Shown here: piece by piece, positions 39,989 to 62,129 of the stretch
Layout: every line of letters begins with the position of its first letter
Position numbering within the stretch: position 1 is the first letter of the stretch
NCBI RefSeq assembly: GCF_900116205.1
Contig: NZ_FOZS01000005.1
Location: 1 to 64,000, forward strand
DNA length: 64,000 nucleotides
Direction of reading: 5' to 3'
Source of the DNA: Halostagnicola kamekurae
GTDB lineage: Archaea > Halobacteriota > Halobacteria > Halobacteriales > Natrialbaceae
Position numbers and translations under genes: made by a program
The notes under the pieces: model-generated
Seen by the model: the letters and a program-made list of their open reading frames with translations, nothing else
The model's database searches: none
What the model was told of the DNA's origin: nothing

Positions 39989-39993
39989 GGTGT

Positions 39994-40392: not shown

Positions 40393-40520
40393 CACCATGT
40401 AGTACCTCATCGGCGAGTATAAATACCGCGGATATAGGGTGAAAACGGCGGCAAACTATCTACAAAGATCCGGAAGCAGTATTCCTATAAATTACTACGC
40501 CGTCCCGAGACGATATCCGT

Positions 40521-42011: not shown

Positions 42012-42014
42012 GGT

Positions 42015-42614
42015 TTAACCTACGAACACCCCTGTATTGAGTCGAATATTGAGGATCAGTATAAACAAGTACACAATCGCATAGGACCCAAGCGTCAATC
42101 CGATCGTTACGTACCACTTGTGCCTCACCGCCAACGAATACGCCAGCGCAAATATTGGCGACGCAAATAGGAATCCGATGAGATATGATAACAGCACGTA
42201 TCCGGCTGTCAGGACGACAAGGATGAACCGCTTACTCCGTATTGTACTATCAAGAGAATCAATCTCAGACGGGCCAGTTGTTCCAGCGTCTGAATCTACT
42301 CTTGAAGCTTCATTGGCTGTCTCGGTGGCTTCTCGCTTATTACTCACTTCTTCGACCTCCTCTTCATGCGAGCCAAATATATCTCCGGAATCGTCTGTAA
42401 ATGCGCGAAGGGGAGCTGGAAGGTAGCTGCTGAACAAGATCAGGAAAGCGCCGATCGCTGTGGCTGCAGCGCTGAACCTGGGGAATAATCCCGATGGATC
42501 TCGAAATGAGGTCGCTTCAATGAACATGTATGTCGAAGCCACTATCAGTCCGACAAGGAATACATGCTCACCAGTTATTTTTCGAAACGGGTGATCTGGC
42601 TGATTGTCAATCAT
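42015..42614 (-). CDS. tctB: Tripartite tricarboxylate transporter small membrane subunit TctB
   Basis: 199 aa from ATG 42614 (MIDNQPDHPFRK). A start at 42668 is in frame, but a TATA-like AGTATAAG lies about 35 nt upstream of 42614 inside that extension. Four membrane segments flank a long acidic loop (SHEEEVEEVSNKREATE). It is the small subunit of the TctABC system. A transposase relic now separates it from tctC, so it may be transcribed from its own promoter. Confidence 0.88.
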   Translation of the reverse strand: MIDNQPDHPFRKITGEHVFLVGLIVASTYMFIEATSFRDPSGLFPRFSAAATAIGAFLILFSSYLPAPLRAFTDDSGDIFGSHEEEVEEVSNKREATETANEASRVDSDAGTTGPSEIDSLDSTIRSKRFILVVLTAGYVLLSYLIGFLFASPIFALAYSLAVRHKWYVTIGLTLGSYAIVYLFILILNIRLNTGVFVG

Positions 42615-42649
42615 AATCAAGCACACTCTATCACACAGTCTCGCTTTGA

Positions 42650-42662
42650 TTACCTTATACTT
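42650..42662 (-). promoter_or_regulatory. TATA-like element upstream of tctB
   Basis: The minus-strand sequence AAAAAGTATAAGG lies next to the IS6 relic and 36 or more nt before the chosen tctB start. If used, the relic or its insertion site provides the promoter for tctBA. Confidence 0.35.
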
Positions 42663-42664
42663 TT

Positions 42665-43148
42665 TCATACCACGGGGAACACATCATGATATCTATTAGT
42701 ACTCAGTGGAATTGTTTCATGGTTGCCAATCCGTTCTTGATAAAGGAGATGTGGTTTGTCCAGACTCGCAATATAACCCTTCGTGTCTGTCCTCATATCG
42801 GGTAAGTTTTCGTGGAGGATTGCCATCTCCGCGAGGGTCATTGCCTGATAGTTGGGATCAGTAATGATCGTACCGACCTTCCCTGAAGGCTGTAGATCGG
42901 CCATTTGGATCCAGTTATGTACGGTTGTGCGACATCGCTCCCATGCCAGCGAGGATTGAGACGGTATCCGCCAACGGCAGTCCCACAAGATAGTGTTGAA
43001 TACTGAGTTTTATCGCAAACTTGGGTGTTACCTCTTGCTCTATAAACTCCAACTCTGGGAAACCGCTATGTTCTGTGAGGCGGACGGTTTCTTGCATGGA
43101 CATTAAGAATTGATGTCCGCTTCATCCCTCAACTTATCTGAATACTAT
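42665..43148 (-). pseudogene. IS6-family transposase remnant between tctB and tctC
   Basis: The N-terminal part is readable (LEFIEQEVTPKFAIKLSIQH, VGLPLADTVSIL), then a frameshift near 42965 leads to TTVHNWIQMADLQPSGKVGT. The core catalytic domain is absent; the rest (ITDPNYQAMTLAEMAILHEN and on) does not match IS6. The outer end AACTTATCTGAATACTATC at about 43131-43149 is a decayed IS6 end. Confidence 0.78.
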
Positions 43149-43283
43149 CAGCTACGAGAGGATGAACATTCATGTGACCGTCCAAAATACGGTATTCGAT
43201 GGCTCAAAGAAAGTCGAAATCGGTAACTCATGTAGCACGGCGTCTACCGTTCACGACGACCTTGTCTTGTATAAGACAGGTTA

Positions 43284-44279
43284 TTACTCGCGGAGTTCGT
43301 CTAGATCAATTCGATCGTCAATGCTGAATGCATCTTGAATAGCCTGAGTCGTCTCTTCAGGACCGCGGAAGAGGACTTCGTTACCCGTTTCATCGGACCA
43401 CTGTTGGACTTCGTCCGAATTGATGGCCGCTTCGTATGCATCTGCTAGGGTTTGCACGCGTTCATCGGGTGTCTCGGGCGCGACACTCGCTGTTCGTGTG
43501 ATTTCCCCAGCGAAGTCCACGTCAGCCCATCCCGCATCCGATGTGGTGGGGAGATCAGGGAAAACAGTAGATCCCTGTGTAGTAAGCGCTGCGACCATAT
43601 CGATAGTCCCTTCGTCGGCGGCGCCTGCCGCTGCCGAGTCAGTCGCAACACCGGCAGGTATCTCGCCTGATGCAGCCGCCTGTATGGTCGGCCCAGAACC
43701 GTCGTAAACAACCCATTCTCCCCACTCGATGTCTCCCTGATTGCGGAGTTCAATCATCGCAGCATGGTTCGCGGCGCCAAGAGATCCCCCAAAGTCGGAC
43801 AGTTCTCCGTTCGCGTATCGGTTAGCCAGGTCTTCTGGCCCTTCTATTCCGAGTTCCGGGTTTGCGAAGATAACATACGGTGTTCGCCCATACTGACAGA
43901 CTCCCTTGAGCTTAGAGAGATCCTCGTTTGTGGGATTAAGGAGCCAGGAGATTCCTGCTGTCGGCAACGTGTGACCGACATGAGTGTATCCATCTGGTTC
44001 GGCGACGAAGGCCTCTGTGATACCAGCTATCGATTCAGCACCGGGGACGTTTTCGATCTGTACGTTGACACCCAGTTCTTCACCAACTGTCGGGAGAATT
44101 GCCCGGGCGTAGGTGTCAGACCCGCCACCTTCACCGTACGGGACAATATGCCGAATATCTTGACTCGGAAATTCTCCGCCACCACTGCCGGAACTCGGTC
44201 CGCTAATGCAGCCTGCAAATCCAATTGTTGTAGCCGCACCCATACCCCTAATGAGCATTCGCCTGTTGTAATCTACCAT
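43284..44279 (-). CDS. tctC: Tripartite tricarboxylate transporter binding protein TctC
   Basis: 331 aa. A hydrophobic signal region followed by lipobox FAGC anchors it to the outside of the membrane. The TctC fold signature is IVPYGEGGGSDTYARAILPT, with the ligand-contact region HTLPTAGISWLLNPTNEDLS. It captures a carboxylate for TctAB. It is transcribed toward tctB, with an IS6 relic in between. A dead paralogue lies at 60048-60997. Confidence 0.92.
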   Translation of the reverse strand: MVDYNRRMLIRGMGAATTIGFAGCISGPSSGSGGGEFPSQDIRHIVPYGEGGGSDTYARAILPTVGEELGVNVQIENVPGAESIAGITEAFVAEPDGYTHVGHTLPTAGISWLLNPTNEDLSKLKGVCQYGRTPYVIFANPELGIEGPEDLANRYANGELSDFGGSLGAANHAAMIELRNQGDIEWGEWVVYDGSGPTIQAAASGEIPAGVATDSAAAGAADEGTIDMVAALTTQGSTVFPDLPTTSDAGWADVDFAGEITRTASVAPETPDERVQTLADAYEAAINSDEVQQWSDETGNEVLFRGPEETTQAIQDAFSIDDRIDLDELRE

Positions 44280-44555
44280 GCAATGAAGTCCAATCAGCGT
44301 GTGGTATTAAACATTATGGATATTCATGTATGATATCGTAATATTCTGTCCCCTTCTTTATATTACAACATTCAGCACTTTATCACCCCGAAATCAATAG
44401 TCACAGGATCCAGCAATGTGTTGTAGGGTCTCACCTATAAAGATTATATGACTAGGATATAGTGATGGGGGTCTCAAGGACTGTGTGGAATCATTAGATA
44501 GCTTCGGGGAAGATCAGTAAATCGAAGGAGTTGAAGCGAGAAAATTTGGTTGTCC
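44280..44555. other. Intergenic, no gene seen
   Basis: AT-rich upstream region of tctC, joined to the left portion of an IS5 relic (from about 44510). The left inverted end of the relic is not recognisable. Confidence 0.4.
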
Positions 44556-45416
44556 ATGACGCAAATCTCCCGCTTCACCAAGCGTTGTGTCTCGGTTGCT
44601 CAAAGCGTTACGTGAACGAGGCGAATCCGCCGCCTCGCAGGGTGGCGGATTCGCCGACTATGCCCTCGTTTCGCTGAATTGTCTCCGGATTTACCTTAAT
44701 ACTCTTATCGAATGACGATCGATTTGCTGAAAGAAACGCCACAAATAGCAGGGGAGATCGGCCAAAGCGGCCGATCTCCCCGTACCCTCCACGCTGTGTA
44801 AGGCGTTTGACCGGATTGAGATGAGCGTCTGCCGAGTGCTGCTGCGCCAGTTGGCACAGCTGCGCGTTCTCTCTGAGCATGCTGCGATCGATGCAACGTT
44901 CTATGAACGAGACCGTGCCAGCCGCCATTACTGCCATCGAACGAATTATCGCGTTCAGACGCTCAGAATTACAAAACTCGTCGATCAGCAACGCAAGCTG
45001 TGCTCGATCTTCACTGTTCGACGACGTTAGAAGGTAGCGACGCGGCTCTTTGTGAGCAGATCGCCCGCGTTCTGACGGGCGATCTGCGGTCTCTAGCCGC
45101 TGATAAGGGCTATGACAAGCAACAACTCCGCGACCGACTCCGTGACCTCGACATTCGACCGCTGATCAAACGCCGGACCTTCGCGCCGTACGATCACGCA
45201 CACAACGCCCGCATTGACGAAGATCGGTACGCTCAGAGGTCAATGACCGAAACCGTCAACTCCGCCGTCAAGCGCTCGCTCGGCTACGCCGTGCGAGCGC
45301 GTAGCTGGTATCGAGAGTTCTGTGAAATTGCTCTGATGTGTGCCGTCTACAACATCAAACGCGCTTGTCAAACAGTGAAATACACCGCCTTACAGCGATT
45401 CAACAGAGCCGTCTGA
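44556..45416 (+). pseudogene. ISH1-type IS5 transposase, frameshifted
   Basis: Starts MTQISRFTKRCVSVAQSV, then a stop and several frame changes. Recognisable pieces are SVCRVLLRQLAQL, HAAIDATFYERDRASRHYCH (first Asp), LAADKGYDKQQ (second Asp) and MTETVNSAVKRSLGYAVRAR (Glu box). The right end GCGATTCAACAGAGCC lies at 45395-45410. The start codon sits between hairpin arms 44533-44541 and 44568-44576, as in the intact copy at 7.9 kb. Confidence 0.85.
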
Positions 45417-45421
45417 AGGGA

Positions 45422-46210
45422 TTAGTATTCCCGATCGAACTCGGGATCACGTCCCTCAATGACTGCATTCACCGCCTCCGTATGCTCGGGATCATTCACA
45501 CAGTCCCACTGTGCCTCTAACGCGGCTTGTGTATAGTCCTCGAAACTGTGATTCAGATCGATGAGCTGCTTCGTGTTTTGCATCGCAATCGCCGGTTTGT
45601 CGCGGAGTTCGTTTGCCAACTTCCGAGCTCGATCCATCGTTTCACCGTCACTCACTGCCTCCACAGCCAACCCTAGGTCGACGGCCTCTGCTGCCTCGAT
45701 ATCACGGCCGGTTAGAATAAGTTCTTTTGCCTTACTCTCGCCTACGAGTCGAGGAAGTAGCCACCCTCCACCGTCGCCCGGGACTAGCCCGATATTGATG
45801 AATTGTTGGCGAAGGAACGTCTCCTCGTTCATTATTCGGAGATCGCATGCAAGTGCGAAGTCGCATCCAGCCCCAACTGCCGGGCCATTCACCGCTGCGA
45901 TGGTGGGTTTCTGTCCGAAATAAAGCAGTCGGTTGACGTTCTGAACAAGCCACAGATGTGACCCATACAGGTGTTTTTCTTCTCGATCTTCTCGCCCATC
46001 CATCGACGTAACATCTGCGCCACTACAGAATCCCTTTCCGCGCCCTGAAAGTATGACCGCGTACACCGAATTATTTGTCATGGCCGACTGAAGTGCTTCG
46101 TTCAGCTCAAGTAGCGTTTCTTCGTCAAACGCGTTCATGAGATCAGGCCGATTGATCACTACTTCAGCACGACCGTTGACGATATCGTAGTCAATCTTCG
46201 TATATGCCAT
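45422..46210 (-). CDS. Crotonase-family enzyme without the hydratase Glu pair
   Basis: 262 aa. Oxyanion-hole motifs GKGFCSGADVTSMDG and GAGCDFALACDLRI are present. The two hydratase Glu positions read Asp (GAGCDFA) and a non-acidic residue (FLRQQFINIGLVPGDGG), while an Asp sits in VPGDGGGWLLP. That pattern occurs in crotonases that isomerise, hydrolyse or cleave C-C bonds rather than hydrate. It follows a CoA-transferase gene on the same strand by 66 nt. Confidence 0.87.
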   Translation of the reverse strand: MAYTKIDYDIVNGRAEVVINRPDLMNAFDEETLLELNEALQSAMTNNSVYAVILSGRGKGFCSGADVTSMDGREDREEKHLYGSHLWLVQNVNRLLYFGQKPTIAAVNGPAVGAGCDFALACDLRIMNEETFLRQQFINIGLVPGDGGGWLLPRLVGESKAKELILTGRDIEAAEAVDLGLAVEAVSDGETMDRARKLANELRDKPAIAMQNTKQLIDLNHSFEDYTQAALEAQWDCVNDPEHTEAVNAVIEGRDPEFDREY

Positions 46211-46276
46211 CGTGAAATATACGGAAACTTTCCGTATTAAGCGTTACTGTTTCGGTTATACGACCCGCAATATTGG

Positions 46277-47458
46277 TCAGTTGTCTGCGTGAAGACTATC
46301 GATTTCTTCTCTCGAATACCCGCCGATCTCCTTGAGGACTTCATCCGTGTGTTCGCCGAGCTTCGGGGCTGGCTGAACATCAGGACTCTCGCTGTTGGAG
46401 AATTTGATTGGCATTCCAGGCACGGGAATTTCGTCCCGCCCTTCACTCCGATTCGGAAGATAGTTGAGCATATCTCGATGCTCAAGGTGAGGATCTTTGA
46501 TGATCTCCTCGATCGTCTGGACTGGTGCGCACGGAACATCCTCAGTGAGGAGTACATCGACAACGTCGTTCTTCTGTTTTCCCTCCAGCCAATTTTCAAT
46601 AGTACTATCAATTTCGTCCATTTCCTGTGCCCGCTTGACCTTCGAGCCGTACTCCTCGCAAATCATGTCCTCACGTCCCATGAGCTCTGCGAGACTCTTC
46701 CACTGATGTTCAGTGATGCAAATAATGGCTACGTAGCCGTCTTCGACCTCGTAGACGTTGTAGGGAGAGATAGCGAGACCGGAATGTTTGTTGCCCGTCC
46801 GTGGGGGCGCGTCCATCTCCGACACCCACGACGAGACGGGGGAAGCTAACGTCGGATACATGCAGTCGAACATACCCACTTCGACGTATTGGCCCTCACC
46901 AGTGAACTCCCGTTCGAACAGCGCAGCCATCACACCGACGACGAGATGAATTCCCCCGAAGAAGTCGCTAATAGCTGGCCCAGCCTTTACGGGATCCTGA
47001 TCCGGGAAACCAGTCGTGTGGATAGCACCGCTCATGGCCTGTATCGTCAGGTCCATCGCAGGGTACTCGGCGTACGGACCGTCGTCCCCGTAGCCAGAAC
47101 CGTGGGCATACACCAATTCTGGATTCAACTTGTTCAAATCCTCGTATCCCAAGCTAAGGGAATCCATCGTTCCCGTCGAGTAGTTTTCGATGATGACGTC
47201 TGCCTTTTCAGCCAACCGCCGAAACGCTTCGCGGCCGTCCTCATCTTTAAAATCGATGGTGACCCCCTTCTTATTCGGGTTTAAGTATTGATACTGAGGG
47301 GGCTTGCCGTCCTCGGTGCGTGTCCGAATGTTTTCTCCCCAGGGTGGCTCGATCTTGATTACGTCTGCACCAAGATACGAGAGGATCATCCCGCAGTAGG
47401 GGCCTTGATAAATTTGACCGAGATCTAGCACTCGTACTCCGCTTAATGGTTGCCGCAT
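46277..47458 (-). CDS. Family III CoA-transferase (CaiB/BaiF)
   Basis: 393 aa from MRQPLSGVRV; a start at 47485 is possible but adds an atypical tail. It has the N-terminal VLDLGQIYQGPYCGMILSYL, ADVIKIEPPWGENIR, and the catalytic Asp in GPAISDFFGGIHLVVG. Such enzymes transfer CoA between acids via an aspartyl-CoA mixed anhydride. It is probably co-transcribed with the crotonase gene downstream, and a second CoA-transferase lies at 56825-58021. Confidence 0.9.
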   Translation of the reverse strand: MRQPLSGVRVLDLGQIYQGPYCGMILSYLGADVIKIEPPWGENIRTRTEDGKPPQYQYLNPNKKGVTIDFKDEDGREAFRRLAEKADVIIENYSTGTMDSLSLGYEDLNKLNPELVYAHGSGYGDDGPYAEYPAMDLTIQAMSGAIHTTGFPDQDPVKAGPAISDFFGGIHLVVGVMAALFEREFTGEGQYVEVGMFDCMYPTLASPVSSWVSEMDAPPRTGNKHSGLAISPYNVYEVEDGYVAIICITEHQWKSLAELMGREDMICEEYGSKVKRAQEMDEIDSTIENWLEGKQKNDVVDVLLTEDVPCAPVQTIEEIIKDPHLEHRDMLNYLPNRSEGRDEIPVPGMPIKFSNSESPDVQPAPKLGEHTDEVLKEIGGYSREEIDSLHADN

Positions 47459-47481
47459 AGCAGATATAGGATAGGCAGGGG

Positions 47482-47828
47482 TCAAAAAAGTATCTCCTGC
47501 AGCGGGATTAGTCGAGACCGTATTTTTTCAACACCCCCTCCGATTGTATTCCGCTGTACCTCGACCGTTCCACCGGCGATTTTCCATCCACGGATCCACC
47601 GATAGAGATACTCAAGCGGCAATTCTTTCATGTATCCAGAGGCACCATGAATCTGAAGCGCCTCATCGATGACCGAGTGGCCTACTTCGTTGGCCTTCAC
47701 CTTCGCAATGGATGTCTCTAATCGGGACGGCTCGCTATCGATAGCGTTCGCGGCCACAAGGTAGATGAGGAGACGAGCGGATTTCAACTCGATCACTGTG
47801 TCAGACAGTTCTCATTCGATCCCTTGAT
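47482..47828 (-). pseudogene. Acyl-CoA dehydrogenase C-terminal remnant
   Basis: ELKSARLLIYLVAANAIDSE and HGASGYMKELPLEYLYRWIR align with the C-terminal third of the dehydrogenase at 50810-51937. Just upstream, the Trp of GIEW is a TGA (GIE-stop-ELSDT), and the N-terminal two-thirds are missing. It is a third copy of this gene in the window. Confidence 0.85.
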
Positions 47829-48241
47829 CCTGTTCCTCGGACAGCTAAAAGCTCATAGCTGGCTGTCATTAGTCTCCTATATGTGGATTTTGGATTGTCG
47901 AATGATTTGTTCGCAACGGCAACCACCATGCAGAAACTCCTATTTTCACTTTGGTAACTGCTTACAGATTGCTTCGCGGGATGATCATCGAAATAGACAT
48001 CACAGCCGTTGGTAACGGGATAAATTCATACTACTACTATTAGAGTTATTTTCCCCTAGAGAAAGCCACACACAGATCGACGGGGACTCAGTTAAAGTGG
48101 GGAATATCGCGATAAGCGAGTCTGTATGTAGATATAACTCTCCGGTTGAATAGACGAGCTCTCGTCCGACAGCGAATCTAATTTTTGCCTTGCCAAATTC
48201 AGCCTCGAAATCGCAGGCTTGAGAAAAACGTTGGAAGGAAT
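47829..48241. other. Intergenic, no gene seen
   Basis: No sustained frame or recognisable relic between the dehydrogenase remnant and the IclR gene end. Confidence 0.35.
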
Positions 48242-49006
48242 TTACTGAGAATACATGATTCCAAGTTCGAGTTCGTTCACCGCCGCAAGGAGATTATTTG
48301 ATAGCTCTTCTCGGATCGTCTTTCCTTTGAAGCGTTGCGCTGGGCCGGATATGGAGAGCGCGCCGAGTAGGAACCCGTTCGGATCTTTGACTGGTGCACC
48401 AACAGCGTTGATCCCCATATTGTGTTCCTCGATATTGAAGGCGACACCACGCTCACGGATCTGCTCTAATTCCTCGAGCAGTTCACCTTTGTCCGTGATA
48501 CTGTTGGAGGTCGATGCTTCGAGCCCGTATCGTTCAATTATCTCGTGAACGCGTGATTTCGGAAGTTCCGCCAACATCGCTTTTCCAGCCGATGAAACAT
48601 GAAGTGGAAAGCTACTACCAGTGCTTGAGAAGGTCTCGACGGCGAGATGGCCAGTACTATTGTAAACATATCGTCCCCGTCCATGTTCCTCGATTGTAAA
48701 ATGGGTGCGTCCACCCGATTCCTCTGCGAGAGCCTTGACTTGCTCCTTCGCCTTTCGATAACCTGGAGTATGCGTTCGAGCGTATTCCCCAATCCGTAGA
48801 AATTCCATACTCGGATAATAGATACTTCCTCTGTTGATCACATACTCCTCGTTAAGCAGGGTTTGAAGGTGATTGTACGCAGTACTCGGGGCGATATCTA
48901 ATGCTTCAGCTACCTCTGTTACACGAGCGCCATCTCGTTCGATGAGTTCCTGAACTATGTTTAGGCTGATGGTGACCGCCTTGATATTTTTTTGATTTGC
49001 TGGCAT
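48242..49006 (-). CDS. IclR-family transcriptional regulator
   Basis: 254 aa. Winged helix (RVTEVAEALDIAPSTAYNHL, about residues 22-45) plus a C-terminal effector domain with GGRTHFTIEEHGRGRYVYNS, SSFPLHVSSAGKAMLAELPK and LGALSISGPAQRFKG. These bind small aromatic or organic acids and control adjacent catabolic operons. It is divergent from a second IclR gene with a 498-bp gap likely to contain their operators, and homologous to it and to the pseudogene at 24762-25543. Confidence 0.9.
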   Translation of the reverse strand: MPANQKNIKAVTISLNIVQELIERDGARVTEVAEALDIAPSTAYNHLQTLLNEEYVINRGSIYYPSMEFLRIGEYARTHTPGYRKAKEQVKALAEESGGRTHFTIEEHGRGRYVYNSTGHLAVETFSSTGSSFPLHVSSAGKAMLAELPKSRVHEIIERYGLEASTSNSITDKGELLEELEQIRERGVAFNIEEHNMGINAVGAPVKDPNGFLLGALSISGPAQRFKGKTIREELSNNLLAAVNELELGIMYSQ

Positions 49007-51937: not shown

Positions 51938-52037
51938 TAGGGATTAGCAGAGATACTCATAGATTCGCGGTAAGTGCAGAGTTGGGAGTTTGCTCGTGAG
52001 ATACGCTTTCAGTTCGGGCAGCGTTCGATAAAGTTGG

Positions 52038-52288
52038 TCGCTCTTGTGTAGCACTTTGTTGATTTCACAGCGTCGCTTTGATAGCGTGTTTGAGCGCTTC
52101 TCTTCCTGGTCTCCGTAGTAGCTTCCGTCGAAGTTGAAACGCTCGGAGATATTGTGTGAGCTTATCTTTTGAGATGCCTTGATGAGGCGAGAGCCATGGT
52201 CGCTGTAGTACGTGAGAGAAGTTTGGGGCTGGAGGGAGATAATTGACCCACAGGGAGTGTCGATTGTCGAAAGGACGTTGTTCGCCAT
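52038..52288 (-). pseudogene. Transposase C-terminal relic with family-B inverted end
   Basis: The minus-strand frame ends SKDKLTQYLRAFQLRRKLL, REALKHAIKATL, stop at 52065, immediately followed by the outer end CGCTCTTGTGTAGCACTTTG at about 52040. This end matches the MITE-B ends, so this truncated element is a candidate relative of the autonomous parent. I cannot name the transposase family. The rest is cut off by the IS630-like element at about 52288. Confidence 0.6.
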
Positions 52289-53350
52289 CTTTCTGATGAA
52301 GAGCTTGATCGGCTCCTGGCCGAGGCGGACGATCCAAAGGTCGTCCGTCGTCTTACCTTCGTAAAGAATCTCTATGAAGGAGACACGCTTGAGGAGGCAG
52401 CAAACCGGGTTGGGAAGTCTGAATCAACCGGAAGTCGGTGGGGTCGCCGCTGGAATGAGGGTGGACTCGGTCAACTGACGCCGAGCTTCGGGGATGGATG
52501 TCCCCCGAAGCTCGGCGAAGATGAACAAGAAGAGCTTCTCGAACTCCTGCATGAGAGCCAACCATAGAAACAACAGGAGATCTAACTTCTTCTCAACGAC
52601 GAATTCGATATTGAGTATCATCCAGATTATCTGAGCACGTTCCTCCGTGAACTCGGGCTTTTGTACTCAATACCACGAACAAAGCGTCCGTCACGGTCTG
52701 ATAACGCTGAAGAGATCCTCGACGAGCGCCTTGATAAGACGTTCGACGAGGACGACAACCAGCCTCACAACAAACACGAAGCCGATGAGGACGGTGGTTT
52801 GGGAACCTGACAACGAGATCTGTACAGACGGCGGGACTGTTGTTGGATCCTTCGACGCATCACATCCCCAACCGTGGGATAATTCGCGTCGGACGTGGTA
52901 CGTCGATAACCTACATATCAAGCTACCGCTAGTTCGAACCGATGAACCAGCGGTCGGCTTCTATGCACTCAACGGTGAGAATACCGTCTTATTCCTGGAA
53001 GATCAGACGAAAGAACAGATTTGCGAATGTCTCGAGCAATACGCGAGCAGAATCTCGACAAGCAGGTTCTGCTCGTCTTAGACAATCTTTTCTCGCATAC
53101 GTGCGAGTACACGCGTAAGCGAGTGTCCCAACTCGGTATTGATCTTGTATTCTTGCCGGTTGGATCACCGGATCTCAACCCAATTGAATCAATCTGGAAG
53201 AGCTTGAAGTGGGAGATTTCGCCGTTGATCATTGAGAGCGCGGAGGAGTTCCGCACTCTCGTCAGTACTGTTTTCGAAAAATCAACTTGCCGTGTGAGCT
53301 TCGCTGGAAACTGGATCGAGCAGTTCCTTGACTTGCAAAAATCATCTTGA
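52288..53350 (+). pseudogene. IS630-family transposase, multiply frameshifted
   Basis: Frame fragments in order: an N-terminal HTH (LSDEELDRLLAEADDPKVVR, TLEEAANRVGKSESTGSRW), then FDIEYHPDYLSTFLRELG, then EPDNEICTDGGTVVGSFDAS, then LDKQVLLVLDNLFSH and VFLPVGSPDLNPIESIWKSL, ending FLDLQKSS. PDLNPIE is the IS630/Tc1 catalytic signature with the last acidic residue. At least three frame changes and one stop. No clear right inverted end is seen. Confidence 0.85.
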
Positions 53351-53543
53351 GTACTATTAGTCCGCCCGAGGCCGCGTCCACGCACGGGCACAGGCGTTTC
53401 TTGCCCTGTGCCTTCGTCTTGTCGTCGCTACCACCAATCACGAACGCGAAGACAATCCAGAAAGTACGATCATCACGGTGTGAGAAGAGTTCTATGACTC
53501 CCTCGAGACAAAATAATAAGTTTTAGCCCGAGCGCACCGACGT
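53351..53543. other. Short gap, no gene seen
   Basis: Contains fragments that may be transposon debris on the minus strand. Nothing firm. Confidence 0.3.
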
Positions 53544-54377
53544 TCAGCGCGGCTCCAGCAGGATGCGTGGCGTCTCGAGCGTCATCGTCGCGATCTCGTC
53601 TTCGCTCAGCCCGGCGTTGACGAGTCGGTCGGCAAACTCCAGTAGTCCCTCCGGTGGCGAAGGGTTCGACGGTTGACCGTAGTCCGTCGAGAGAACACAG
53701 CGCTCGGCGCCGACCGCGTCGACGGTCGTGGCCATCGTCTCGACGTCGACATCGCCTTTCGTCACCGGAAGGTAACACTTCTCGAGGTACGCGCCGCGCT
53801 CGGCGAAGGCAACCTGATCCTCGTGGGAGAGGTCCATAAAGGCCGATTCGGGGTGCGTGATGAGATAGGGCACTTCGGCGCCCATCGCCTCGAGTTCGTC
53901 GAGGATGACGTATGTCTCGTTAGGGCCAAGGTGGCCGTTCCCGAGCACGACGTCACGACTGGCGTCGGCGACCGTCTCGAGCACGGCGCGAGCGTCGGCG
54001 CGGAGTGCACCATCGTCGGTAAGCGCGGTAAGGTCCTGCCCTTCGAAGGGGAAGTGTCGTCCCGGGGTGTAGTTGGCCGCGCTGAAGGTCGGCAGCCAGA
54101 CGACGGAGACGCCCATCTCGATCGCTAATTTGACCGCACTGGGATTGAAGCCGCCGACAAACGTGTTCAACGCGATCGATGAGTAGATGTCGACGTCGGG
54201 AACCTGTTTAGCGGCCATCCGCGCCATCGGTGCGGTGTTCCAGAAGTGGCTCTTCAGAACGAACCCGCCCAGGTGAGACTCAGAGACTCGCCCCGCGAGC
54301 TCGACCGTCCCGTGCTTTCGCTCCCAAAGCGACGGAGCTGCGTGAACATGGAAATCGATTGCATCGTCCGGCAGCAT
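53544..54377 (-). CDS. Amidohydrolase-like DUF6282 family protein
   Basis: 277 aa. A TIM-barrel amidohydrolase-like layout: the N-terminal metal motif DFHVHAAPSL, a middle LKSHFWNTAPMARMAAKQVP, GNGHLGPNETYVILDE, LITHPESAFMDLS and late STDYGQPSNPSPPEGLL (Asp). The His/Asp pattern suggests a divalent-metal hydrolase or decarboxylase, but the reaction is unknown. It starts 3 nt after the 350-aa gene ends and is third in a coupled cassette with the CGSC protein. Confidence 0.8.
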   Translation of the reverse strand: MLPDDAIDFHVHAAPSLWERKHGTVELAGRVSESHLGGFVLKSHFWNTAPMARMAAKQVPDVDIYSSIALNTFVGGFNPSAVKLAIEMGVSVVWLPTFSAANYTPGRHFPFEGQDLTALTDDGALRADARAVLETVADASRDVVLGNGHLGPNETYVILDELEAMGAEVPYLITHPESAFMDLSHEDQVAFAERGAYLEKCYLPVTKGDVDVETMATTVDAVGAERCVLSTDYGQPSNPSPPEGLLEFADRLVNAGLSEDEIATMTLETPRILLEPR

Positions 54378-54380
54378 CGA

Positions 54381-55433
54381 TCAGACCTCCTCGTCGATGC
54401 CGACAGTAATCGATCGCGTCTCGCCGAACGAGTGCAGCGCCATCGAGTGCTTGCCCGCGCCGCCGGCAACAACAACGGTGACGTCTTCCGGTGTCTCGAC
54501 GAGCGGGATCCTCGCGTCGTCGTTCTCCACCTCGAACCGATGGTGCCAGGTGTAGTTGTCGGTGATACCGGCCGTCTGGAGCGTCTTGAGCTCGTTTCGG
54601 GCGTTGTCGTAGAGGAACCACTGAACGTCCTCACGGCTCCAGTTGTTTCGGGCAATGGTATCGGCGTGCTCGGGACCCAAAACGATGCAAATCTCGCCGT
54701 GCGTGTGGTGGGAGTTGTTGTTTCCGACGGTCGCGAACACGTCCGCCGCGACCGTCAGTAGCTCTGCCGGCTTTTCGTTGACGTGGTCATTGATCTCGTG
54801 GGGAGCTTCGACGCCCATGACCGTCACGGCGCTCTCATCCTCGTCAAACCCGCGCTGGACGTGGAGTGGGTCCCACGGATTCTTCTTTTCATTCTCGGCG
54901 ATACAGAAGCTGTACTTTCCGGGATGACCGTGCGTGGCGCGGTCCATATCCCCTGGCGTCCCACCGCCGAGGTTGACGAGGAGCAGACGGACGGTACGTC
55001 CGATGGTCGCGTTCGCTCGGTAGCCCTGTCCGAAGACATTGTAGCCGTAGTTGAGGTTGATCTCTTCAACGATTGGTCCGTTGACGACGAGCATCGGCGC
55101 GGCCGGGTGCGTCGTCGCGTTGACACCGTAAAGGTTGAATTTTTCCTCGGTCATCGCCTCGACCGCCGCGATCAGAACAGGCATGTACGCCGGTTCACAG
55201 CCGGCCATTACGGCGTTGATTGCGATCTTTTCGACCGTTGCGACCCCGTACTTCGGCGGGATCGTTCCCAACTCCTCATCTGGCTTCCGCGAGGTTCCCT
55301 CGAGCATCCGTTCAACGCGTTCGGCTGTGGGCGGGACGACCGGGAACCCATCGGTCATCTCACGTTGGTAGAGGTAGTCGTTTACGTCCTCAAAGTCGTC
55401 GTCGATCGAAATCGTCTCTGAGTCGAACGTCAT
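54381..55433 (-). CDS. 350-aa partner of the CGSC protein
   Basis: 350 aa, soluble, no signal. Motifs MTDGFPVVPPTAERVERMLE, AINAVMAGCEPAYMPVLIAA, GVNATTHPAAPMLVVNGP and NNNSHHTHGEICIVLGPEH recur in bacterial and archaeal proteins of unknown function encoded next to UGSC-family genes. Conserved Cys in MAGCEP and a His cluster (SHHTHGE) suggest metal or thiol chemistry. It overlaps the CGSC gene by 4 nt and precedes the DUF6282-like gene by 3 nt, so the three are one translational unit. Specific reaction unknown. Confidence 0.75.
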   Translation of the reverse strand: MTFDSETISIDDDFEDVNDYLYQREMTDGFPVVPPTAERVERMLEGTSRKPDEELGTIPPKYGVATVEKIAINAVMAGCEPAYMPVLIAAVEAMTEEKFNLYGVNATTHPAAPMLVVNGPIVEEINLNYGYNVFGQGYRANATIGRTVRLLLVNLGGGTPGDMDRATHGHPGKYSFCIAENEKKNPWDPLHVQRGFDEDESAVTVMGVEAPHEINDHVNEKPAELLTVAADVFATVGNNNSHHTHGEICIVLGPEHADTIARNNWSREDVQWFLYDNARNELKTLQTAGITDNYTWHHRFEVENDDARIPLVETPEDVTVVVAGGAGKHSMALHSFGETRSITVGIDEEV

Positions 55434-56077
55434 AGGTCAATCGGGCAGTAGAGGCTCTCATCGCTCAGTTCCTCGTCGTCGGCCAAATAGCGCTCCGCGT
55501 ACTTGTCCTCGAGTTCGTCGCGGTCAGTGGTGAGGACGGCGACGATCTCCTCGAGCGCGTTCTCGGCCCGATCGAGGACCTTCGGTTCCTCGAGGTCTCC
55601 CATCGGATGCGAGACCATGACTAGCGGCAGACCCGGCATGCTGAGCGACTGGGCCTCCGACTGGCCGAGCTTGATGAATTCGTCGCTGTTGATCGTTGCG
55701 ACCGGTATTCCCTTCTTTTCGATGTCGATACTGTCGTAGACGCACCATGACGTGCACGAGCCGCAGTCGCCATAGGCATTGACTACGGTGTCGCACTGCG
55801 AGACCAGCTGGTCGGCGATCGCGTCAGCGGGGATCGGACTCTTGTCTTTCCGTCGGTAAACGACCTCATCGACGCCGTACTCGGATTTAAGCCGATTGCC
55901 GACGGCTTCGAGAAAGACATCCGCATTGCTCTTCGAGTTGTCGAGCAGGCCGACGGTCGCCCCCTCGAGCGAGTCGAGCCGTTCCGCGATCGGCGTCGCG
56001 TCGTAGTTCACTTCTCCTCGGGGGTCGAGAATTTCAATACTCGCTCCGTCGTCTGTACGTGTGCTATTGGCGCACAT
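55430..56077 (-). CDS. UGSC-family protein, Cys form (CGSC)
   Basis: 215 aa from ATG 56077; a TTG at 56083 is in frame. The hallmark is NAYGDCGSCTSWCVYD, where bacterial selenoprotein relatives have Sec (UGSC) and this has Cys-Gly-Ser-Cys plus a third Cys 4 residues on. The N-terminal half (EILDPRGEVNYDATPIAERL, GLLDNSKSNADVFLEAVGNR) is the family's typical start. A thiol-redox or thioester-forming role is inferred from the motif. It is first in the three-gene cassette. Confidence 0.83.
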   Translation of the reverse strand: MCANSTRTDDGASIEILDPRGEVNYDATPIAERLDSLEGATVGLLDNSKSNADVFLEAVGNRLKSEYGVDEVVYRRKDKSPIPADAIADQLVSQCDTVVNAYGDCGSCTSWCVYDSIDIEKKGIPVATINSDEFIKLGQSEAQSLSMPGLPLVMVSHPMGDLEEPKVLDRAENALEEIVAVLTTDRDELEDKYAERYLADDEELSDESLYCPIDL

Positions 56078-56112
56078 ATACAACTATTCCACAGCCACGG
56101 AGTAAATAAGTT

Positions 56113-56340
56113 GCCCCGAGTCAGCCGCTACGGCCACCTCGCGATGTCGATTATCAGCGGCTGGCAGGCGATGATCCGCGGTGAGGGCGAATTCGTTCAT
56201 TGGGGCGCAACCAGCCAGGACGTCATGGATACGACGACCGTCCTCAGGTGCGAGACGGACTCGACGAACTGCTCGAGCGGCTCCGGACGATCGAGCGGTT
56301 CGAACGGTTCCTCGACGCCGGATGCGAGGTGATCTACTGA
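56113..56340 (+). pseudogene. Aspartase/fumarase-superfamily lyase remnant
   Basis: RYGHLAMSIISGWQAMIRGE and FVHWGATSQDVMDTTTVLR match the region around the His-Trp-Gly-Ala-Thr-Ser-Gln-Asp motif of 3-carboxymuconate cycloisomerase and adenylosuccinate-lyase-like proteins. After about 45 residues the frame loses homology, and both termini are missing. Confidence 0.75.
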
Positions 56341-56824
56341 GAGGGGATGGTCGTTCGGAACCTCATCGGCCGCGACCTCGCGTATCGGGAGGGAAAGAGG
56401 GCGTTACTGGAGGTTGTGGAGGCCGTCAGCCCGGAGAATATAGTCTTCGATATTTAGAGTTCGACGATGGATTTTTTCGAGTATGCGAAGTTCTGGTTCT
56501 GGCTGGTCTATCAGGTCGATCCGTCGGTCAATCGAGAACATCCCCCGCGGCGCGTCCCTCGACTCGAAAACATTCGACGCGGAACGACGTTCGACATGGA
56601 CCACATCTACATCCGCTGGCTCCGGGAGAGGAAACCGACGAGTGGTGGCGAATGGAGGCCCTTCCCTACGATATCGGCCTGGAATGGGACTGATTTCATC
56701 CGTGTTCGGAAACCGGGTGGTGTTGGAACGCCGTTCTCCGGCGATGCGCTCGGTTCGCCCGTCTGTCTTCAGACCCTCGGAAACAAACTTATATTACACC
56801 CCGCTGCCCTTGTTGTTCGTACGT
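56341..56824. other. Decayed coding DNA of uncertain origin
   Basis: Short runs such as LLEVVEAVSPENIVFDI and a following stop, then FFEYAKFWFWLVYQVDPSVN in another frame, loosely recall phosphosulfolactate-synthase-like (ComA) sequences. Too broken to call. A TATA-like TTATATTACACC lies at 56788-56799, about 25 nt before the ATG at 56825. Confidence 0.25.
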
Positions 56825-58021
56825 ATGTCCCAAGGACCGTTACGTAGTCTTCGCGTCGTTGACTTCACGACGATGATAAGCGGCGGCTTCGCCGCCTCGA
56901 CGCTGGCTGACTTCGGCGCCGACGTCATCACTGTTGAACATCCGACGAAGACGGACCCGATCCGCGAGTGGAAGCCGATCAAGGACGGCGAGTCGATGTG
57001 GTGGAAGTCACTAGGTCGCAATCAGCGCTGTGTTACGCTCGATCTGTCGTCGGACGAGGGGCAAGCTATGGCGCTCGAACTGGTTGAGGACGCCGACATC
57101 GTCCTGGAGAACTTCCGATCAGGAACCATGGAACGGTGGAATCTAGGTTACCAGGAACTAAAAACAGTCAATGAGGCCATCGTCATGGTACGCATCACCG
57201 GCTACGGCCAGACCGGCCCGAAATCCGATAAGCCGGGCTTCGGATCTGTCGCCGAGGGAATCTCCGGGTGGGCCCACAGTAACGGCTTCCCGGACAGCGA
57301 CCCCCTGCTTCCGCCGATTCCGCTCGCCGATCTCACGGCGGGACAGTACGCCGCCCAGTCGGCGGTGTACGCGGTGTTCGACCGCGAGATGACAGAGGGG
57401 AACGAAGGACAGGTTGTCGACGTGAGTCTGTACGAACCCCTGTTTCGTCTGTTCATCGGCAAGGTTGAGGCCTACGATACGATGGACTACATTTCCGAGC
57501 GTACAGGCAACCGATCGGAGAACTCCGCGCCCCGAAACATGTACGAGACCGCTGACGGCTATATCGCGCTCTCTGCGTCGTCACAGCGGATCTTCGAGAA
57601 CGTGATGGCGGCGATCGGTCGCGAGAACCTCATCGACGATCCGCGTTTCGAGACAAACGCCGACCGACTGGACAACGTCGAGGAACTCGACGCGATCATC
57701 GAGGACTGGACCAGCGAGCGGCCGACCGACGAGGTTATTGAGGTGATGGAGGCTTCCGACGCCATCGTCGGACCGATCTACGACATGGCCGATATCTTCG
57801 AGGACATCCACTACCAAGTGCGGGACAATATCGTCTCCGTCGAGGACCCAGACCTCGGCGAGGTGAAGACCCATGGCATTGTGCCGAAGTACTCCAAGAC
57901 GCCGGGCGAGGTGTCCCACCTCGGCCCATCCCCGGGCGAACATAACGAGGAGGTGTACCTCGAGGAGGTAGGGATCGACGAGGAAGAATACGAGCGGCTT
58001 TCCGAGGGTGGAGTGATCTAA
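56825..58021 (+). CDS. Family III CoA-transferase (CaiB/BaiF)
   Basis: 398 aa from ATG 56825; the open frame extends upstream to 56483, but that part has no homology. Signatures are LRVVDFTTMISGGFAASTLA, ADVITVEHPTKTDPI, DIVLENFRSGTMERWNLGY and the catalytic Asp in IPLADLTAGQYAAQ. It would activate an acid using another acyl-CoA as CoA donor. The stop is followed directly by the HMGL gene, so the two are coupled, as in pathways that activate an acid and then cleave its CoA ester. Confidence 0.9.
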   Translation: MSQGPLRSLRVVDFTTMISGGFAASTLADFGADVITVEHPTKTDPIREWKPIKDGESMWWKSLGRNQRCVTLDLSSDEGQAMALELVEDADIVLENFRSGTMERWNLGYQELKTVNEAIVMVRITGYGQTGPKSDKPGFGSVAEGISGWAHSNGFPDSDPLLPPIPLADLTAGQYAAQSAVYAVFDREMTEGNEGQVVDVSLYEPLFRLFIGKVEAYDTMDYISERTGNRSENSAPRNMYETADGYIALSASSQRIFENVMAAIGRENLIDDPRFETNADRLDNVEELDAIIEDWTSERPTDEVIEVMEASDAIVGPIYDMADIFEDIHYQVRDNIVSVEDPDLGEVKTHGIVPKYSKTPGEVSHLGPSPGEHNEEVYLEEVGIDEEEYERLSEGGVI

Positions 58022-58963
58022 ATGGACGATCTCCCTGAGGACGTCCGGATCGTCGAGATGTTGCCGCGTGACGGATTTCAGAGCTTGGATGGGTTCGTTC
58101 CGACGGAGACAAAGGTCGAACTGATCGATCGGCTTTCCGAGACGGGTGTCGACGAAATCGAGTTCACTTCGTTCACCCACCCCGACGCCGTGCCGAATCT
58201 ACGTGACGCCGAGGAGGTCGCCGAGCGGATCGATCGCAGGTCGGACGTCAGTTACCGGGCGCTCGTCCCCAACTCTATCGGCATGGAACGGGCCCTCGAG
58301 GCTGGCGTAGACAAGGTCAATGCGCTCCTCGCAGTGAGCGAAACCTACTGCGAGAAGAACCAGAACGCAACCCGCGAGGAGTGCATCGCGGAGATCGAGC
58401 AGATCGTCGACCTCGCGGACGGGACCGATGTCGCGGTCGAGGCGGGGATGGCGACCAGCTTCTACTGTCCCTACGAGGGGCACATCCCACTGGAACAGAC
58501 TCTCTCCGTGGTCGACGCGATGGTCGAAGCGGGCGTCGACGAAGTCACGCTAGCGGCCACAATGGGGCTCGCTGATCCCGCACAGATTTCAGAGAGTCTC
58601 TCGGCCATCCGGGAGCATTGGCCCGACCTCGACTGCGGCCTCCACCTTCACGACACCAATGGCATGAGCCTCGCGAACACGCTCGTCGCGATGCAACATG
58701 GCGTTGACCGGTTCGATACGTCGGTCTGCGGAGTCGGCGGTGGCGTCGTCCTTCCCGACGAACTCGAAGGCGTCGGGAACACGCCTACGGAGGACCTGCT
58801 TCACATGCTCTCGCGGATGGGGAATAGCTCCTCGGAACAGTTCCAATCCGTTTCGACGGTTGCTGACGACGTTGCTGACGAACTCGACGTTGGCCATAAC
58901 AGCCACGTTGTCCGGGGCGGTACCGCTGAATACGTCCTCGATGTAATGGGTCAGGACGACTGA
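58022..58963 (+). CDS. HMG-CoA lyase-like enzyme
   Basis: 313 aa DRE-TIM metallolyase. MLPRDGFQSLDGFVPTETKV gives the Arg-Asp of the active site, and GLHLHDTNGMSLANTLVAMQ the metal His pair and Asn. The lyase signature GLGGCP-type loop reads CGVGGGVVLPDELEGVGN, so the mobile-loop Cys of HMG-CoA lyase is not at its usual place. It probably cleaves a 3-hydroxy-3-methyl (or similar) acyl-CoA. It starts at the base after the CoA-transferase stop codon. Confidence 0.88.
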   Translation: MDDLPEDVRIVEMLPRDGFQSLDGFVPTETKVELIDRLSETGVDEIEFTSFTHPDAVPNLRDAEEVAERIDRRSDVSYRALVPNSIGMERALEAGVDKVNALLAVSETYCEKNQNATREECIAEIEQIVDLADGTDVAVEAGMATSFYCPYEGHIPLEQTLSVVDAMVEAGVDEVTLAATMGLADPAQISESLSAIREHWPDLDCGLHLHDTNGMSLANTLVAMQHGVDRFDTSVCGVGGGVVLPDELEGVGNTPTEDLLHMLSRMGNSSSEQFQSVSTVADDVADELDVGHNSHVVRGGTAEYVLDVMGQDD

Positions 58964-58994: not shown

Positions 58995-59761
58995 TCATAC
59001 CGAGAGCCAGGTTACCGCCTCACTCTCACTGTCACTCAGGCTCTCGATCCTCATGGAACGCCCGTTGCCCCCTTGTTCGTGATCGCGCGTCTCTCGAAGT
59101 GCACGAGACGCTTGGTGTTCGTACCGGATCGCCGTCTCCTGATCGGTACCGAGTCCCGTATCGATACTGTCCTTCGCAACGCGGATCGCGAGCGACGCGC
59201 CGGTCGTGATCCGATCGATGAACCCGTCGCTCTCCGCCGAACGAGCGGAGACGCGCTCTCCCGCCATCACCAGTTCCTTGGCGAGACTCGAGCCGACCTG
59301 TGAGACGAGCCGCTGGATGCCACCGTTGGCTGAACGGATTCCGAGCCGCGACTTGGGAAAGTCCAGTTTGCTCTCCGGCGTTGAGAGGCGAAAGTCACAG
59401 GCAATCGCGAACGCGAGGCCGGCGGCCAGACAGTGTTCATCGATCTCGTCGACGACCGGTATCGGGAGATTTGGGGAAGAACGAGTTCGTCTCGGAACTC
59501 ATTCACGGTGAGCTGGGGAGCATCGCTATCGGCGTTGACGTCGGTACCTACGTTGAACGCCTGCTGGCCGGCTCCTTCGACGACGACCGTGCGGATGTTC
59601 GGTTCGGACTCGTCCCGATCGAGCGAGTGGATCTTCTGGAGACAGTCGACAGTCTCTCTAAGTGTCGGAAAGAATTCGTTTAGCGACTCGGGTCTGCCGA
59701 GAATTACCGTCGCGATGCCGTCCTCTAGCTCGCTCTTGATAGTGTCGTACTGGATGATCAC
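58995..59761 (-). pseudogene. Enoyl-CoA hydratase, frameshifted
   Basis: The first frame gives MIIQYDTIKSELEDGIATVI and AFNVGTDVNADSDAPQLTVN, then frame changes near 59475 and 59270 are needed to read DEIDEHCLAAGLAFAIACDF, LDFPKSRLGIRSANGGIQRL and KELVMAGERVSARSAESDG. The catalytic Glu pair is not preserved in the readable parts. Dead crotonase paralogue related to that at 28883-29677. Confidence 0.83.
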
Positions 59762-60047: not shown

Positions 60048-60997
60048 ATGAGGGATTTTAACATACACTACTTCGTGAACTGTGGGTGTACAGCAACTAT
60101 TGTCGGTCTCGTCGGCTGTATCGGGGGTAACAACAGGGACGGCGAATTTCCGAGTGATAACGTTCGTTACATCATTCCATACGATGAGAGCGGCGGTTTC
60201 CGACACGTACGCGCGAGTCATAGCTTGTGGGGGAGAGCTCAGTGTCGACGTGCAACTCGAAAACATTCCCGGCGCCGAATCGATTCAGGGCATCACGCCG
60301 AGCCAGATGGTTACACGCACGTCGACGCTACCGACGGCCGGCATCACATGGCTACTCAACTAGACCAACGACGACCTCTCTCAGCTGAAGGGAATATGTC
60401 AGTACAAGCAAACGACGTACGTCATCTTCGCGTACCCTGACAAGGAGATTGAGGGGATGGAAGACCTCGCGAACAGGTACGAGGATGGCGATTTCACGGA
60501 GTTCGGCGAGTCACTTGGTACCGCGAATCACGTCGCCATAATCCAGCTCCGCAAAGAGGGTGATGTCGCTTAGGAGGACTGGATCGTCTACGACAGTTCC
60601 GGTCCGATCGTGCAGGCAACCGCGTCCGGCGAGATCCCCGTGGGCACCGCAACCGACTCCTCGGCCGCCGGTGCCGTTGAGGAGGGGAACATCGACATCG
60701 CTAGGGTGTTAACCTTCGACGGATCCAGCTTCTTCCTGGACACGCCGACCACCGAGGACGCCGGCTGGACGAACGTCGACGAGCTCGGAGCAATCATACG
60801 ACCCCCTCTTGCGCACCGGACACGCCCGGTGGTCGTGTTCAGACGCTCGCCGACGCCTACGAGGCGGCCATCAATTCCGACGACCAGGGGAATGGTCCGA
60901 AGAGACGGGCAACGAGGTGCTGCTCAACGGTCCCGATGAGACCAACGCGGCCATCGAGTAGGCATTTAGCATCGACGAGCAGGTCGACCTCGACTAA
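60048..60997 (+). pseudogene. TctC-family binding protein, decayed paralogue
   Basis: Parallel to tctC at 43284-44279: lipobox LVGCIGG, then FPSDNVRYIIPYDESGGF, a frameshift near 60190, NIPGAESIQGITPSQM, a TAG in LLN-stop-TNDDLSQLKG, TAG near 60571, SGEIPVGTATDSSAAGAVEE and TTEDAGWTNVDELGAIIR, then further shifts to a TAG near 60959. At least four inactivating changes. No tctAB genes lie beside it. Confidence 0.88.
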
Positions 60998-61154
60998 CTA
61001 CAAGAGATCCCATTCGACGACATGGTCATTCGATTTTATTTAGTGTCGAGATTGGATTATCTTCCAGTGGCCACGGACGACGGATAACAGCTTTGGGACT
61101 ACGGGCCGCGGTGTCAACCGGCTCTCTGAAACGGTACTGGGAGCGGGCGTTCTC

Positions 61155-62129
61155 TCAAAGATCGGGGATCACACGGCGACCGAACAGGTCGACGGCCTTC
61201 ATGACGTCTTCATGGTCGGTCGTCGGCGTCGCGAGCCGCAACACCGCGTGATCGACGCCGAACGCCTCGCGGTACCTTTCGAGCTGAGCTGCACACTCAG
61301 ACGGCGTCCCGTAAACGAACAGATCCTGCGCGAACTCGTCTATGTCACCCTCGAGCGCGCTCACCCACGCCTCCGGAACCGTCGACCCCTTCGCCCGGTA
61401 CGATTCGACCAGTTCCGTCAGCAGGGCGCGAAGTTTTTCACGAGCGACGTCTCCGTCCTCGTCGATACAGGCGATTCGGAGCAGCGGAACCGTACGCTTC
61501 GAGCCGTCGGCATTGTCTAAGAACGATTCGTACGTCGCATACTTCTCCTCAAGAGCGTCGAACGGTTCGCGCCAAGACGGCAGCCAGGCATCCCCCAGAC
61601 ATGCGGCCCGCTTCAGTGCGGGCGTTGATCCGCCGCCGACCCAGATCGGCGGTTGCGGATCGCGGATGGACTCGGGGGCAAGGTCGAACTCCTCGAACGA
61701 CACGAATCGGCCGTCGTAGGACGACGGTCCGGGTTCCCACAGTTTGTTGAGTGCGCATAAGTGGTCGGTCATTCGCGGGCCGCGCAATTTGAAGTCGTAC
61801 CCGAGATTCTCCATCTCGTCGCGGCGCCAACCGGTTCCGACGCCAAGGATAAAGCGACCGTCCGAAACGACGTCGACCAGATTCGCCGCGCCTGCGAGCG
61901 AGACCGGGTTCATCTGTGGGAGGATCGTAACGCCGGTTCCGAACTCGATTTCATCCGTCGCGGCTGCGAACCCGGCAAGTGCGATATAGGAATTCGGCCA
62001 CTTTGCGTCCCAGCCGTGGTGTTCGGCAACCCATGTCGAGTCGAAACCGAATTCCTCGGCACGTTGGACCTCCGTCAGTGCCTCGTCGAACCGCTGTCCG
62101 CCTTCCGTGCATCTGAATCCGATTTTCAT
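61155..62129 (-). CDS. LLM-class flavin/F420-dependent oxidoreductase
   Basis: 324 aa bacterial-luciferase-like TIM barrel. MKIGFRCTEGG start, FDSTWVAEHHGWDAKWPNSY, EIEFGTGVTILPQMNPVSLA, the GRFILGVGTGWRRDEMENLG motif and a C-terminal FVYGTPSECAAQLERYREAF. Haloarchaea make F420, so F420H2 or FMN could be the cofactor. The substrate is unknown. It is a single gene, convergent with the dead tctC. Confidence 0.88.
   Translation of the reverse strand: MKIGFRCTEGGQRFDEALTEVQRAEEFGFDSTWVAEHHGWDAKWPNSYIALAGFAAATDEIEFGTGVTILPQMNPVSLAGAANLVDVVSDGRFILGVGTGWRRDEMENLGYDFKLRGPRMTDHLCALNKLWEPGPSSYDGRFVSFEEFDLAPESIRDPQPPIWVGGGSTPALKRAACLGDAWLPSWREPFDALEEKYATYESFLDNADGSKRTVPLLRIACIDEDGDVAREKLRALLTELVESYRAKGSTVPEAWVSALEGDIDEFAQDLFVYGTPSECAAQLERYREAFGVDHAVLRLATPTTDHEDVMKAVDLFGRRVIPDL

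Follow-up and report, generated by a model that had tools for sequence, protein, structure and literature searches.

The UGSC-family protein of Halostagnicola kamekurae is, as judged by profile comparison, probably a distant, single-domain relative of the selenocysteine (Sec) domain of GrdB and PrdB. The latter are the substrate-activating selenoproteins of the glycine/betaine and D-proline reductases, in which Sec is used in reductive C–N cleavage and the substrate is held by a carbonyl group. The H. kamekurae protein is itself a further member of an already known family; what is new is the GrdB/PrdB relation (of which no earlier statement was found in the open-access literature searched), a near-obligate partner protein and the remnant of a SECIS hairpin within the gene.

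The window analysed here, 64,000 nucleotides of contig NZ_FOZS01000005.1, holds the one UGSC gene of the whole H. kamekurae genome. An earlier note on this DNA had described three coupled genes beside a CoA-transferase/HMG-CoA-lyase-like pair on the other strand, and all five are present. The first three are intact on the minus strand and coupled by a 4-nt overlap (UGSC stop and partner start, 55433/55430) and a 3-nt gap (partner to DUF6282); the pair is likewise intact, with profile matches for both members. The features of the locus are as follows.

51938–53504, no strand assigned: unrelated insert with a DDE_3 transposase fragment, replacing ~7.5 kb of the orthologous island
53544–54377, minus: DUF6282 protein, amidohydrolase-like (predicted metal-dependent hydrolase), putative accessory third gene (PF19799; tied to this UGSC subfamily)
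54381–55433, minus: 350-aa near-obligate UGSC partner with invariant Cys79 and no Pfam family (adjacency in genomes and loci; AF2 model)
55430–56077, minus: UGSC-family protein, Cys form (CGSC), 215 aa from ATG (PF24696, NF041046; start by comparison with Natrinema zhouii)
55733–55751, minus: degraded SECIS-like hairpin sequence in the UGSC gene, just 3′ of the CGSC codons, GTCATGGTGCGTCTACGAC (a hairpin folds in sister genes at the bacterial SECIS place)
56120–56655, plus: remnants of adenylosuccinate-lyase-family and phosphosulfolactate-synthase-like genes (multi-frame fragments against intact N. zhouii genes)
56825–58021, plus: CoA-transferase family III, CaiB/BaiF (PF02515, 2.3e-111; 97.7% to N. 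zhouii)
58022–58963, plus: HMG-CoA-lyase-like protein, HMGL (PF00682, 4.1e-46; PRK05692 over cut-off)
59023–59755, minus: enoyl-CoA hydratase pseudogene (three frames against an intact 262-aa gene)
60199–61003, plus: TctC (tricarboxylate receptor) pseudogene (three frames against an intact 315-aa gene)
61155–62129, minus: LLM-class F420/flavin-dependent oxidoreductase, intact (PF00296, 2.2e-58; conserved beside DUF6282 in other haloarchaeal plasmids)

Two gene starts were set by comparison with the 96–98% identical N. zhouii plasmid: UGSC begins at ATG 56077 rather than TTG 56083, and the CoA-transferase at 56825, which shortens the protein from 512 to 398 aa.

UGSC and the GrdB/PrdB selenocysteine domain

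The reading of the first protein as a Cys form of the UGSC family is borne out by matches above the curated cut-offs of both PF24696 (8.5e-56, 189 bits against a cut-off of 25) and NF041046 (147.8 bits against 125), and by CGSC at residues 107–110 (numbered on the 217-aa reading of the gene). The motif is conserved in relatives, with the first Cys (Cys107) invariant in 70–72 family sequences and the second (Cys110) nearly invariant across the family. A third Cys, noted earlier alongside CGSC, is present in 10/33 Cys forms and 9/69 Sec forms; it is not conserved, and we rejected it as a distinguishing mark of Cys forms.

Searched directly, UGSC gave no match to the Pfam GRDB model (PF07355) at E 10. 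Alignment of profiles by hhalign, using a GrdB-family profile built from genomes in which UGSC also occurs (UGA translated as Cys), gave a probability of 95.5% (P 1.6e-8) with Sec aligned to Sec, and masking the motif in both profiles lowered this to 92.6%; among the controls, 100 column shuffles reached at most 1.7%, the reversed profile 0.4% and the partner 0.5%. The Pfam GRDB match in the fetched GrdB genes ends about at the UGA codon, such that the part shared with UGSC lies largely outside the model, which may explain why the direct search misses the relation. Many UGSC genomes also carry short GrdB-like selenoproteins, often with UPxC, and mostly where the genome gives no GrdE match (loci L115–L135).

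A 2008 description gives the UGSC family a likely thioredoxin fold and a fusion to “Unknown_1” (PMC2398784), and a 2026 review places it among thioredoxin-like families whose functions are largely uncharacterized (PMC13188914). In the AF2 model (pLDDT 91; alignments for the structure models exclude rows from annotated plasmids), strands and helices strictly alternate, CGSC sits at the start of a helix following a strand, and the structural neighbours are generic Rossmann/receiver/flavodoxin-like chains; the predicted fold leans towards a Rossmann-like α/β arrangement and is not clearly the published thioredoxin fold. No PDB relative was returned by sequence searches with UGSC, partner or DUF6282, or by the UGSC and partner profiles, and the PDB as searched offered no GrdB/PrdB structure for a fold comparison.

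A near-obligate partner and an occasional third gene

UGSC is carried by 22/391 haloarchaeal genomes, and the partner adjoins it in every one (22/22 genomes, 23/23 UGSC genes), as well as being present in all 16 plasmid records with UGSC. Approached from the other side, a GTDB genome scan with the partner returned at least 585 relatives, and at the best 80 of these loci UGSC is present in 69; five of the remaining 11 are from Poribacteria. The poribacterial loci (L051, L072, L084, L088, L098) have a shorter partner homologue and no UGSC, and three of them share similar downstream ORFs.

DUF6282 behaves differently, and the co-occurrence predicted for all three cassette proteins stands for UGSC and partner, where it is near universal, but extends to DUF6282 only in some subfamilies. 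As homologues occur mostly with the partner and the motif is conserved, the claim of a UGSC/partner cassette is upheld. The third protein matches PF19799 over its full length (1.1e-54, 185.5 bits against a cut-off of 26.8), with Amidohydro_2 matched at sub-threshold level only. Of 20/382 haloarchaeal genomes with DUF6282, 13 are without UGSC; DUF6282 is adjacent to or within ~16 kb of UGSC in 7/7 haloarchaeal genomes with high-scoring UGSC (chance 3e-10 if genomes were independent, which they are not) and near it in 0/15 with lower-scoring UGSC. It also adjoins UGSC at two Chloroflexota loci. We found no papers on DUF6282 in a literature search; it is predicted to be an accessory hydrolase in some UGSC subfamilies only.

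In haloarchaea, a second partner paralogue often lies on the other side of UGSC (e.g., L005–L007, L012, L014, L018, L020, L021), which suggests that two paralogues flanking one UGSC gene form a three-gene unit in many of these organisms. Fused UGSC–partner proteins occur on plasmids of Sporomusa termitida and Vibrio europaeus (L029:8323-10047, L030:8374-10059); these lack the Cys motif (MGTS), and the loss of both Cys in some fused copies implies that redox chemistry may not be universal. The fusions lie near aconitase X and DUF126.

The partner (350 aa) matches no Pfam or NCBIfam family. The conserved Cys and His cluster ascribed to it reduces to a single Cys, Cys79, invariant in 71 sequences, the His cluster not being conserved; other invariant residues are D28, G29, P35, V75, A77, G78, G119, G135, N141, R146, E180 and W187. 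Its AF2 model (pLDDT 94) has no clear structural match, the best being the class I fumarase alpha subunit (E 7e-4, TM 0.25), while the C-terminal half resembles chorismate-mutase-like domains at a Z of ~6, below the trustworthy level. A fumarase relationship was rejected (profile comparison 0.1%; one invariant Cys against three cluster-binding Cys), as was one to GrdE (PF09338, 0.1%). With neither GrdE nor any known family matched, no pyruvoyl-type subunit is evident.

Selenocysteine, its probable replacement and an eroding island

That the first Cys is often Sec in bacteria, as the earlier note supposed, is seen in the UGA codon occupying this position in 69/102 UGSC genes, followed by a SECIS-like hairpin and accompanied by SelB in the genome. 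In these Sec-form genes, the 48 nt from the UGA fold to a strong hairpin whose conserved core is GTCGTGGAGTGTCCACGAC, with z = −2.06 in Sec forms against −0.17 in Cys forms (p 6e-10, related sequences being treated as independent). SelB is present in all tested Sec-form genomes but one (MAG G412) and was not found in the tested Cys-form haloarchaeal and Sphingomonas genomes; Mycobacterium gordonae has a Cys-form UGSC, yet SelB is present. In three Sec copies the motif is UGSS (L059, L069, L103), Ser replacing the second Cys, so a resolving Cys is not strictly required. A UGSC gene with the motif UGSC and a SECIS-like hairpin after it also lies on a conjugative IncP plasmid of Acidovorax sp. 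T1 (L027:8419-8937; annotated at NZ_CP021650.1 70245-70535), near IS1071 and a C–P lyase operon; its UGA having been read as a stop, the gene is entered as a hypothetical protein of 96 aa. A literature search on the substrate of this strain yielded nothing useful.

At the same place, the DNA of the window's closest Cys relatives reads GTCGTGGTGCGTCTACGAC and retains weak folding, and the H. kamekurae remnant has one further change relative to these (GTCATGG); an Rfam search of the cassette region gave no match. A degraded hairpin at the bacterial SECIS place in a Cys lineage makes descent from a bacterial Sec form likely. In the partner tree (midpoint-rooted, with many inner branches unresolved), H. 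kamekurae groups with a CGSC-bearing Sphingomonas MAG (100/96), nested in a mostly bacterial clade and far from the main haloarchaeal clade. The simplest reading is lateral transfer: the window's Cys lineage is likely to descend from a bacterial Sec ancestor, with Sec swapped for Cys.

The surrounding island is orthologous to regions of the N. zhouii plasmid and a Natrialba asiatica contig (90–97% DNA identity over aligned blocks), and in H. kamekurae it is eroding while the cassette is intact. The DNA earlier described as decayed, between the cassette and the CoA-transferase, consists of remnants of an adenylosuccinate-lyase-family gene (56120–56295) and a phosphosulfolactate-synthase-like gene (56287–56655), both intact at this place in N. 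zhouii. The enoyl-CoA hydratase and TctC receptor genes are frameshifted, and ~7.5 kb downstream of DUF6282 have given way to the 1.6-kb insert (which has a perfect 15-nt inverted repeat at 52479–52517). UGSC, partner, DUF6282, CoA-transferase, HMGL and the LLM oxidoreductase remain intact, the first five with dN/dS of 0.04–0.15 against N. zhouii (divergence that may mostly predate the decay); ratios of 0.08–0.15 indicate purifying selection on the cassette genes. A second, paralogous cluster, located upstream at 39090–49006, comprises MaoC, thioesterase, TctA, TctC, enoyl-CoA hydratase, CoA-transferase, an acyl-CoA dehydrogenase fragment and IclR, with a second TTT system at 40–44 kb of the window.

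Across haloarchaeal islands the recurrent UGSC neighbours are a CaiB CoA-transferase, an LLM oxidoreductase, a thioesterase, a TTT or TRAP receptor and a CoA lyase (HMGL, CoA ester lyase or beta-keto acid cleavage enzyme). Their recurrence suggests that an imported organic acid is catabolised, and backs the link to an organic-acid/CoA/lyase pathway that had been proposed for this locus. The close neighbour met most often in bacteria is a TctC-type receptor (18/80 loci within 1.5 kb; such receptors are numerous in betaproteobacteria). A CoA-transferase lies within 1.5 kb at only 7/80 sampled loci. Thioredoxin reductase was rejected as a general neighbour, being adjacent in two plasmids only and at 0/80 loci.

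A putative two-component enzyme

We tentatively propose, with a confidence a little short of even, that UGSC and its partner together make up a GrdB/PrdB-like nucleophilic enzyme of two components, acting in CoA-dependent catabolism on an organic acid or its thioester, which it would cleave reductively or reduce. The two proteins would be subunits of one enzyme; by analogy with GrdB/PrdB, the nucleophile would be Cys107, whose place Sec takes in most bacteria, and its target a substrate that is bound on or by the partner, where the invariant Cys79 may take part. Resolution of the intermediate would fall to Cys110, forming a Cys–Cys or Sec–Cys bond, re-reduced by a cellular dithiol system, and overall an organic acid or its CoA ester would undergo reduction or reductive cleavage. 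The neighbouring CoA-transferase and lyase would provide CoA activation and C–C cleavage, and DUF6282 might serve some subfamilies as an accessory hydrolase. The genes, their coupling, the alternation of Sec and Cys, the profile homology and the nested phylogeny are observed; complex formation, the nucleophilic and reductive chemistry and the substrate, like the thiol/thioester chemistry foreseen in the earlier note, are inferred.

UGSC might instead be a general thiol–disulfide oxidoreductase of thioredoxin-like fold with the partner as its redox substrate, and the published suggestion of such a fold and a redox role (PMC2398784, PMC13188914), the CxxC-type motif and a trxB gene beside two bacterial copies are all consistent with this. 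The strictly alternating β-α model with its Rossmann/receiver/flavodoxin-like matches, the profile homology to GrdB/PrdB, and neighbours that are catabolic rather than stress genes argue otherwise, and we consider it unlikely. Rossmann-like topology with a Cys at a helix start would suit a cofactor-independent racemase, isomerase or lyase that works without net reduction through either the two UGSC Cys residues or Cys79 of the partner, as would the partner's weak likeness to the fumarase subunit and to chorismate-mutase-like domains and the position of the cassette among lyases; frequent use of Sec, implying a strong nucleophilic or redox need, and the failure of profiles to support the fumarase likeness make such an enzyme quite improbable.

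Were the cassette to act on thioesters by acyl transfer or hydrolysis on Cys, upstream of the CoA-transferase, the CoA-transferase and CoA-lyase neighbours recurring in haloarchaea would be expected, but the scarcity of a close CoA-transferase among the sampled loci renders this very unlikely. It could also be that the H. kamekurae cassette is a relic, its pathway decaying and the trio intact only through the recency of decay, given the broken receptor, hydratase, lyase-family and phosphosulfolactate-synthase-like genes and the ~7.5 kb lost to a transposase-bearing insert; six intact genes, low dN/dS in five of these and the second TTT system speak against this, and we give it little credence.

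Beyond the two-component enzyme that we prefer, it is possible, if on balance doubtful, that UGSC and partner represent a third class of Grd/Prd-type reductase, with no pyruvoyl subunit, widespread in aerobes, directed at organic-acid cleavage and gained more than once by haloarchaea, with Sec exchanged for Cys and a SECIS remnant left in the lineage described here. The domain relation and near-obligate partner make what was an “unknown redox protein” testable as an enzyme of two subunits, and the GrdB/PrdB likeness suggests a role for a family that has lacked one since 2008. The haloarchaeal Cys copy permits a Sec/Cys comparison and is practical to study because it can be expressed without selenocysteine machinery.

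The H. kamekurae protein shares with other UGSC family members (PF24696/NF041046) a full-length match over both curated cut-offs, the CGSC/UGSC motif and an adjacent partner, and differs in being a haloarchaeal Cys form whose third gene is DUF6282 and whose SECIS hairpin is degraded. The DUF6282 protein agrees with PF19799 along its full length and differs by its UGSC neighbour, absent from 13/20 haloarchaeal DUF6282 genomes. The UGSC/“Unknown_1” fusion of Zhang and Gladyshev (2008) likewise joins UGSC to a second conserved-Cys domain, and the Sporomusa and Vibrio fusions may be of the same kind; in H. kamekurae the genes are separate. With GrdB/PrdB (PF07355), UGSC shares a U-G-x-C Sec/Cys motif, after which come a helix and an “E-x-x-G-I-P” segment, but it comprises the Sec domain only (~215 aa, without the GrdB N-terminal domain), its partner is not GrdE-like, and its hosts include aerobes.
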